DNA of 64,000 bases from Mucilaginibacter sp. PAMC 26640 (GTDB lineage: Bacteria; Bacteroidota; Bacteroidia; Sphingobacteriales; Sphingobacteriaceae), in contig CP014773.1 in NCBI GenBank assembly GCA_001596135.1, positions 1,798,001 to 1,862,000 of the forward strand. The letters run 5' to 3'. This document shows, one piece after another, positions 5,387 through 13,772 of this stretch. The stretch's first letter is position 1. Every line of letters begins with the position of its first letter. Made by a program: the position numbers and the translations under genes. The notes under the pieces were generated by a model. It saw nothing but the letters and a program-made list of their open reading frames with translations. It was not told the DNA's origin and ran no database searches.

Positions 5387-6184
5387 GTGTCTGCTCAACA
5401 ACGTTATTTTATTGAATTGGCTTATGATGGTACCAAATACCATGGCTGGCAGGTGCAGCAAAATGCGGTAAGCGTGCAGGAGCTAATAAACAAAGCACTA
5501 TCTACTTTATTGCGCCAGGAAATTGAAACCGTAGGCTGCGGCCGGACTGATACCGGCGTACATGCTAAAGAATATTTTTTGCATTTTGCCCCCCAGCCCC
5601 CTGAAGGGGGAGCTGAAGATGCATTGCAAAAGTTCCCCCTTCAGGGGGTTAGGGGGCTCAACGCGCTGCTGCCGCATGATATCGCCATCAAACAAATCAT
5701 TCCTGTTCATCCGGATGCCCACGCGCGTTTTGATGCTACGCTGCGTTCCTATGAATACCATATCCATTTTGATAAGAACCCATTTTTAAACGGGTACTCC
5801 TGGTTGCTGCGCGACAGGCCAGACCTGGATAGGATGAACCGGGCGGCGGCAATCGTCATGGAATATACAGATTTTAGCTGTTTCAGTAAATCAAATACCC
5901 AGGTTAAAACCAATAATTGTAAAATTGTAAATGCGGTTTGGGAACAAACCGAAAATGGCATTGTATTTAAAATTTCAGCCGATCGTTTTTTGAGAAATAT
6001 GGTACGCGCAATTGTGGGTACATTATTAATGGTTGGCAAAGGCGATATGCAACCGGAAGACATCCGGAAGATTATAGAAAGTAAAAGCCGAAGCAATGCA
6101 GGCATGAGCGTACCGGCCTGCGGCTTGTATTTAACGGAAGTAAAATATCCGTATATGCCCCCAAGCCCCCTGAAGGGTAGGTAA
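5387..6184 (+). CDS. truA: tRNA pseudouridine(38-40) synthase TruA
   Basis: Converts U38-U40 of the tRNA anticodon arm to pseudouridine. The N-terminus ELAYDGTKYHGWQVQ and the catalytic motif CGRTDTGVHA (Asp55) are intact, as are the later blocks YEYHI, FSKSN and ADRFLRNMVRAIVGTL. GTG start. Two parts are not normal TruA. Residues about 69-90 (PQPPEGG...LQGVRG) are the in-frame translation of a palindromic repeat, placed between the strand after the catalytic loop and the RLNALLPHDI-type helix. The last residues PPSPLKGR come from a second repeat copy. The frame is open throughout, so the enzyme is probably still made. Confidence 0.93.
   Translation: MSAQQRYFIELAYDGTKYHGWQVQQNAVSVQELINKALSTLLRQEIETVGCGRTDTGVHAKEYFLHFAPQPPEGGAEDALQKFPLQGVRGLNALLPHDIAIKQIIPVHPDAHARFDATLRSYEYHIHFDKNPFLNGYSWLLRDRPDLDRMNRAAAIVMEYTDFSCFSKSNTQVKTNNCKIVNAVWEQTENGIVFKISADRFLRNMVRAIVGTLLMVGKGDMQPEDIRKIIESKSRSNAGMSVPACGLYLTEVKYPYMPPSPLKGR
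5588..5657. repeat. Paired REP-like palindrome (REPIN-like) inside truA
   Basis: Two arms of about 27 bases lie in inverted orientation. The left arm is C-rich and contains GCCCCCTGAAGGGGGAGCT. The right arm (5631-5657) contains TTCCCCCTTCAGGGGGTTA. They are separated by about 16 bases. Each arm is itself palindromic around CCCCTGAAGGGG. Related copies occur at 6157, 13628-13656 and 13741-13772. Confidence 0.85.
6157..6180. repeat. Single REP-like element at the truA 3' end
   Basis: The core GCCCCCTGAAGGG matches the left arm of the element at 5588. It supplies the last codons (PPSPLKG) of truA; the stop follows at 6182-6184. No partner arm is found downstream, so this looks like a half element. 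Confidence 0.75.
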
Positions 6185-12596: not shown

Positions 12597-13646
12597 ATGG
12601 CTAAACTAAACGTGGATCGGCAGGAAAGCGAATTTCTAAATAATACCATCGCTCACTGGGAGAAAAACAACCTGCTCGACTCCGGGCAGGCCGAAAAGCT
12701 ACGCACCAGCTATGAGGTAAAAGGTTTCGACTGGATGCGGCTGGCCAAGTATTCATTTTGGGTTGCGCTTATTTGCGGGGCGGTAGCCGTTGGCTCTTTA
12801 ATTGTTGATGACGCCGTGATCAACTGGATCAAAAAACTTTATGATACCCCCGATATCGTCATCAGCATAATCTCTGCAGCCATGGCGGTAGGTTTATTTT
12901 ACCTTGGCCGCAAAGCAGAGAAACGCTATCCCGAAAAAGTTTTCAGCAACGAGGCGGTGAGCTTTACCGGCGTGCTATCTACGGCATGTTCTATTGCTTA
13001 CCTGGGTAAAACTTTTGATAACGGCTCAGGGCATTATTCGTTACTCTTCCTTATATCAGTTTTCGTTTACGGGTTTTTAGCCTGGAAAATGGGCTCCCGG
13101 CTCATTTGGCTGTTTGCGCTGGTATCGCTGGGCAGCTGGTTCGGTACCGAAACGGGTTACCAGACCAATTGGGCGCTTTACTTTTTCGGAATGAATTATC
13201 CGCTGCGCTTTGTATTGTTCGGTTTATTGCTGGTGGGTGCCTGTTTCCTGCTCAAAAACAAAAAGTGGTTCGGCTATTTTTGGGAGCTTACCTATGTAGT
13301 GGGGATGCTGTACCTGTTCATGTCGCTTTGGCTCTTGAGTATCTTTGGTAATTACGGCAGCCTGGATGCCTGGTGGCATATCACGCAGATTAGTTTATTT
13401 TACTGGGGCATCATATCTGCTTTGGTTGCAGTCGGTTTCCTGCTTTATGGCTTAAAATACAACGATACCATTGCCCGCGAGTTCGGCGTTACTTTTTTAA
13501 TTATTTTCCTGTATACCAAATACTTCGAATATCTGTGGGATCATACCAATAAAACGCTTTTTTTCGGGATTTTGGGTTTATCTTTCTGGCTGATAGGGCG
13601 CAAGGCAGAAAAGATCTGGAATATTAGAAGCCCCCCAACCCCCTGA
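12597..13646 (+). CDS. Polytopic membrane protein, DUF2157-like
   Basis: A 349-residue protein with a short soluble N-terminal helix region (QESEFLNNTIAHWEKNNLLD, residues 9-28) and about nine to ten membrane segments from residue 50 onward, separated by short loops. The N-terminal pattern plus multi-helix body resembles DUF2157-type proteins; function unknown. The last residues SPPTP and the stop codon come from a REP-like element (13628-13656), so the ancestral C-terminus has been replaced or extended. Convergent with the LysE-family gene. Confidence 0.7.
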   Translation: MAKLNVDRQESEFLNNTIAHWEKNNLLDSGQAEKLRTSYEVKGFDWMRLAKYSFWVALICGAVAVGSLIVDDAVINWIKKLYDTPDIVISIISAAMAVGLFYLGRKAEKRYPEKVFSNEAVSFTGVLSTACSIAYLGKTFDNGSGHYSLLFLISVFVYGFLAWKMGSRLIWLFALVSLGSWFGTETGYQTNWALYFFGMNYPLRFVLFGLLLVGACFLLKNKKWFGYFWELTYVVGMLYLFMSLWLLSIFGNYGSLDAWWHITQISLFYWGIISALVAVGFLLYGLKYNDTIAREFGVTFLIIFLYTKYFEYLWDHTNKTLFFGILGLSFWLIGRKAEKIWNIRSPPTP

Positions 13647-13772
13647 AAGGGGAGCTTTTGATAGGCAACTCTATTACTAAGCTAGCGATTCTGTTAGTTT
13701 AGTACCTAACAGGTTTATCTACCATACAAAGGCAGATGAAAAAGTTCCCCTTCAGGGGGTTAGGGAGCTCTT
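13628..13772. repeat. Paired REP-like elements (REPIN-like) between convergent genes
   Basis: The left arm (13628-13656) contains CCAACCCCCTGAAAGGGGAG. The right arm (13741-13772) is its inverted counterpart with CCCCTTCAGGGGGTTAGGGA. About 85 bases of unrelated AT-richer DNA lie between. Each arm provides the stop codon of the gene entering it: SPPTP-stop from the left and SSLTP-stop from the right. Confidence 0.85.

Follow-up and report, generated by a model that had tools for sequence, protein, structure and literature searches.

In the 64,000-nucleotide stretch of Mucilaginibacter sp. PAMC 26640 analysed here (the window), positions 13630-13768 hold an inverted pair of 24-nt arms of the consensus GCCCCCYARCCCCCTGAAGGGGGA, which separates a membrane protein gene from a LysE-family gene. 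The membrane protein gene (12597-13646, forward strand), whose match to DUF2157 is weak and falls below the Pfam cut-off, ends in NIR-SPPTP-TGA with its final five codons inside the left arm (13630-13653, forward strand; GCCCCCCAACCCCCTGAAAGGGGA, one mismatch to the consensus). The gene for a LysE-type translocator (PF01810; 13752-14387, reverse strand) ends in FFK-SSLTP-TGA, and its final five codons lie inside the right arm (13745-13768, reverse strand; GCTCCCTAACCCCCTGAAGGGGAA, two mismatches). Both stop codons, at 13644-13646 on the forward strand, central in the hairpin, and at 13752-13754 on the reverse strand, occupy nucleotides 15-17 of their own arm. An earlier note on this DNA had claimed that a REPIN-like pair provides the stops of both convergent genes and does so in the same relative frame, and both points hold at this junction, although one frame out of three common to two genes is unremarkable alone.

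The spacer, or loop, between the arms (13654-13744, no strand) is unlike the spacers of M. pedocola and M. gilvus in both sequence and length and contains a weak terminator-like hairpin (13690-13713, forward strand; TCTGTTAGTTTAGTACCTAACAGG followed by TTTATC). RNA folding predicts a single long hairpin for the transcribed 13630-13768 pair (-72.5 kcal/mol, z -9.3).

A second inverted pair of the window, at 5588-5657 (arms at 5588-5611, forward, and 5634-5657, reverse), lies in frame inside truA (5387-6184) and is translated as APQPPEGG...FPLQGVRG. A similar insertion occupies the same truA loop in four congeners (L182, L193, L194 and L195) and is lacking in three others (L179, L183 and L184). 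The C-terminal tail of truA, PPSPLKGR, is encoded by a decayed arm (6157-6180, forward strand) that precedes the TAA stop at 6182-6184; truA orthologs end either natively, in ...YPYI or ...YLYL, or in PLTP from an arm. The gene downstream of truA in L180, L183 and L184 has an arm that is apparently translated as an N-terminal linker, e.g. APPSGGGGGSV.

A dispersed palindromic family

The genome of this soil bacterium (5.6 Mb, two contigs) carries approximately 85-100 dispersed hairpin arms. A 19-nt arm pattern searched with up to three mismatches gave 83 matches and the reversed-pattern control gave none, therefore chance is excluded; the 24-nt arm pattern gave 85 matches. The 24-nt consensus is composed of a GCCCCCYAR foot and a CCCCC-TGAA-GGGGG hairpin, and among 90 arms, 72 have the core loop TGAA and 12 have TAAA, while arm positions 7-9 are mostly TAA, CAG, CAA or CGG. 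Of the three frames in which an arm can be entered from outside, two contain a stop codon, namely TGA in the hairpin loop and, if position 7 is T, TAA or TAG in the foot. The core was present in nearly all sampled Mucilaginibacter genomes, with dozens of copies in many, and was mostly absent from other families of the same class.

The arms share the main properties of REP and REPIN sequences, in that a short palindromic unit (24 nt with a hairpin core, within the 20-40 nt of such elements) is repeated many times, and the copies are mostly extragenic, occurring singly or as inverted doublets that flank a variable spacer and can be folded into one long hairpin. The GTAG or CGTC end tag was sought and is absent, the arm ends being GCCCCC... 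and ...GGGGGA. A genome-wide search for a cognate RAYT gave six Y1_Tnp matches, none flanked by arms, with a smallest arm-to-Y1 gene distance of about 0.9 kb, and three RAYT-like genes of the genome bear palindromes different from the arms. The Y1 transposase-like genes L085, L067, L086, L087 and L088 are adjoined by their own distinct palindromes or hairpins.

When the arms were compared to MITEs, the spacers were found to vary in sequence and length across copies and orthologous sites, and the relatives are too diverged for target-site duplications to be read. A search against Rfam returned only sub-threshold miRNA look-alikes, due to the truA hairpin. Literature searches gave no match to the core sequence and nothing relevant on palindromic intergenic repeats of Mucilaginibacter.

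Stop codons at the arms

Gene calling relied on a home-made codon-pair model and covered 53 arm-bearing stretches (0.68 Mb in total); the starts so obtained are approximate and the stops exact. A gene 3' end is faced by 40 outward arm edges, 34 of which overlap the stop codon or lie within 8 nt of it (median 3 nt); at random intergenic positions, only 4% lie within 8 nt of a stop and the median distance is 167 nt (p about 1e-41). Because element-bearing gaps may be short, each actual gap was kept in a second test and the element was slid within it; where the gap left 40 nt or more of slack, 14 of 18 edges were within 8 nt of the stop against 1.4 expected. The same distance was found for 24 of the 30 stop-facing arms of M. 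pedocola (G024) and for all 14 of a third congener (G055), the tests in the three genomes being not fully independent as some junctions are common by descent. The copies are hence located immediately 3' of stop codons, and the non-random placement anticipated in the earlier note is borne out in all three species. Most arms follow an intact native stop. Arms that face a start codon cluster too, 2-19 nt before the start. Arms are found at the same junctions in several species and occupancy is patchy, with 30 of 38 orthologous junctions scored as empty in one relative (G004) by a simple pattern that overlooks degenerate arms, which makes the occupied and empty counts rough.

Seven genes of this genome end at an arm TGA (arms with up to four mismatches) and one at an arm TAA; one gene, truA, reads through an arm in the third frame, and five stops share their last one or two bases with the first bases of the arm. 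The corresponding counts are four in the TGA frame, four in the TAA frame and one read-through for M. pedocola, and, for the third congener, one TGA-frame stop, one TAA-frame stop and two genes that run through T-less arms in the TAA frame. Across the three genomes, the TGA frame was used 12 times, the TAA frame eight times (six stopping at the arm TAA) and the third frame twice, a departure from uniform use with p about 0.03 (chi-square by hand). An enrichment of one frame over the other two, as proposed earlier, is therefore found only in part: use is skewed and TGA is commonest, but the TAA frame is used as well. The frames that hold an arm stop are used and the stop-free frame is rare; no special role of the TGA frame is needed, and selection against long tails would give such a pattern.

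Relatives that lack the element at the 13630-13768 junction have LysE proteins ending in ...FFKH, KHH or KHR and membrane proteins with native, varied tails, and the gap at their empty junctions is -4 to 14 nt in several species and exceeds this in others. M. pedocola and M. gilvus carry the element; in both, the membrane gene stops at the arm TGA (after ...PSPPAP and ...GRPTP, respectively) and LysE retains its own stop a few nucleotides before the arm. The LysE gene of this strain no longer has the codons that followed FFK, and its reading frame continues into the arm. The native C-termini in element-free relatives (KH, KHH, AETAS, TEKEII and NTKTTETEV before the stop) may be set against the arm-encoded tails where the element is present (SPPTP, PSPPAP, GRPTP and VAPAP).

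This strain, M. pedocola, M. gilvus and M. psychrotolerans form a clade with support of 100/99. M. psychrotolerans lacks the junction element despite its position inside the clade, therefore either a loss or separate gains are required. In the simplest history suggested by these sequences, the element would have been gained once and lost again in M. psychrotolerans, and a small deletion would have followed in this strain; separate gains are the alternative. Acquisition of the element probably dates to the ancestor shared by this strain, M. pedocola and M. gilvus, in which the membrane gene would already have used the arm TGA; LysE of this strain would later have been stripped of its native ...KH(H)-stop and come to rely on the arm. 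Sites 1389381, 2476220 and 2709446 likewise have element-supplied stops here and native stops in relatives. Comparison with relatives at several junctions shows that, once a native stop has been removed by a small deletion or by insertion of the element itself, the gene runs on for a few codons and then ends at a stop provided by the arm.

Relation to published repeats

For REP-rich genomes, Di Nocera et al. 2013 (PMC3733652) report that most REPs of the convergent type are separated by under 20 bp from the 3' end of each of the two flanking ORFs. GTAG REP termini often supply TAG stops, and REPs are also found inside ORFs, including the tRNA pseudouridine synthase A gene of S. maltophilia (PMC3733652). 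The Mucilaginibacter arms are like GTAG REPs and their dimers (REPINs or BIMEs; PMC3733652) in being short palindromes, single or as inverted dimers, that hug convergent ORF ends, donate stops and have copies within ORFs. They differ in having neither a GTAG/CGTC tag nor an adjacent RAYT gene found, and in supplying the stop mainly as the loop TGA or the foot TAA. The pair at 13630-13768 is probably a single member of a REP/REPIN-like family of palindromes dispersed in Mucilaginibacter and no new kind of system, which is the best explanation of the whole. The family works like a REP family, with the same habits as published REPs, and lacks the tag and the adjacent RAYT that would place it among the RAYT-linked REPINs. 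The earlier suggestion that portable gene ends of this kind had not been described for this group may hold for Mucilaginibacter; the same habit has, however, been published for GTAG REPs (PMC3733652).

In E. coli, REPs within 15 nt of a stop codon have been reported to stall ribosomes (PMC12306157). The arms resemble these in placing a hairpin directly after the stop codon, although the sequences are unrelated, and most stop-facing arms are so placed, compared to about 11% of predicted E. coli REPs within 15 nt of a stop. Rickettsia palindromic elements and in-frame bacterial MITEs (PMC2229807) are likewise palindromic repeats translated inside protein genes, as in truA, but the Mucilaginibacter arms are 24 nt long, mostly extragenic and abut gene ends. 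The inverted uptake-signal pairs of Neisseria and Pasteurellaceae (PMC1852404) are also enriched between convergent genes; these, however, lie no more than about 10 nt apart and form a terminator hairpin, whereas the Mucilaginibacter spacer is long and terminator-like sites are mostly outside the arm.

Explanations for the attachment to stops

The earlier note had proposed that such repeats could act as portable gene ends, combining a stop codon with a bidirectional hairpin terminator. On this reading, the element would be a mobile module with an intrinsic terminator that is kept because it ends genes cleanly. The supply of stops at many gene ends in several species agrees with this, as does the short T run after the hairpin in some arms (at least five T in the 8-nt window in 33 of 84 arms, GCTTTTGATT type). 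The terminator half of the proposal is not supported, however. Sites with a hairpin and a T run were found at 15 of 37 arm-bearing gene ends, compared to 51 of 138 convergent controls and 65 of 212 well-spaced tandem control ends, and only four of the 15 overlap the arm, most lying beyond it; a bidirectional intrinsic terminator gains no support from these counts. Native-looking terminators persist between the arms or downstream of a single arm at 2709446, 1451586 and 2129069, where relatives without arms can hold a terminator in the same gap, and the intact native stop before most arms also speaks against a portable gene end. The repeat itself is probably not the transcription terminator, though the subset of arms followed by TTTT may have this role, and the portable gene end is an improbable explanation.

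Two further explanations, each possible but less likely than not, concern why the arms lie at stops, where they may have arrived by targeted insertion or been kept by selection. According to one, a hairpin directly after the stop has a selected function, such as 3'-end protection or control of ribosome release, for which arms would be sent to stops or preserved there, and stop donation is a by-product. The tight spacing in three species, which persists when gap length is conditioned on, the arming of the same junctions in several species and the E. coli precedent (PMC12306157) argue for this; the patchy occupancy, rough as its counts are, argues against it, and the arms before starts and inside truA would be left unexplained by a 3'-end function. 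According to the other, the element is neutral and mobile, compact genomes tolerate copies at gene edges only, and the stops are accidents of insertion. The empty orthologous junctions of several relatives are short, therefore any insertion there must hit gene ends, and the copies within truA or at a neighbouring gene's N terminus resemble tolerated insertions; yet most arms stay next to the stop even where the gap leaves them ample room. A fail-safe gene end, for which copies of a REP-like family would be brought to stops or kept there so as to place a hairpin a few nucleotides past the native stop and reserve stops in two frames, appears unlikely; if true, a native stop could be lost without long read-through.

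For the REP-like family as we interpret it, the likeliest effect in the cell, by analogy to the stop-proximal REPs of E. coli, would be that of a stable 3' hairpin at the stop codon which modulates translation termination or mRNA 3'-end stability. The hairpin would not be the primary transcription terminator. The placement data quantify an extreme stop-codon attachment of a dispersed palindrome in Bacteroidota, and the orthologous junctions with and without the element provide a set in which one can follow how new C-termini arise and what a hairpin close to the stop does. For genome annotation, C-terminal tails such as SPPTP, SLTP and PPAP should be recognized as repeat-encoded.

Other short repeats were seen alongside this family. 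In a genome from another family (G061; contigs C13, C16, C41, C50 and C68), CCCCTCAAGGGG pairs have a nearly constant spacing of 60 nt and look like a separate MITE-like family. Arm-free junctions (L163, L157, L257, L166 and others) often carry repeats of the CAGTTTGCAGTT, AGATGTGCAGATG and GTCGGAAGTCCG types, which start directly after the stop codon.
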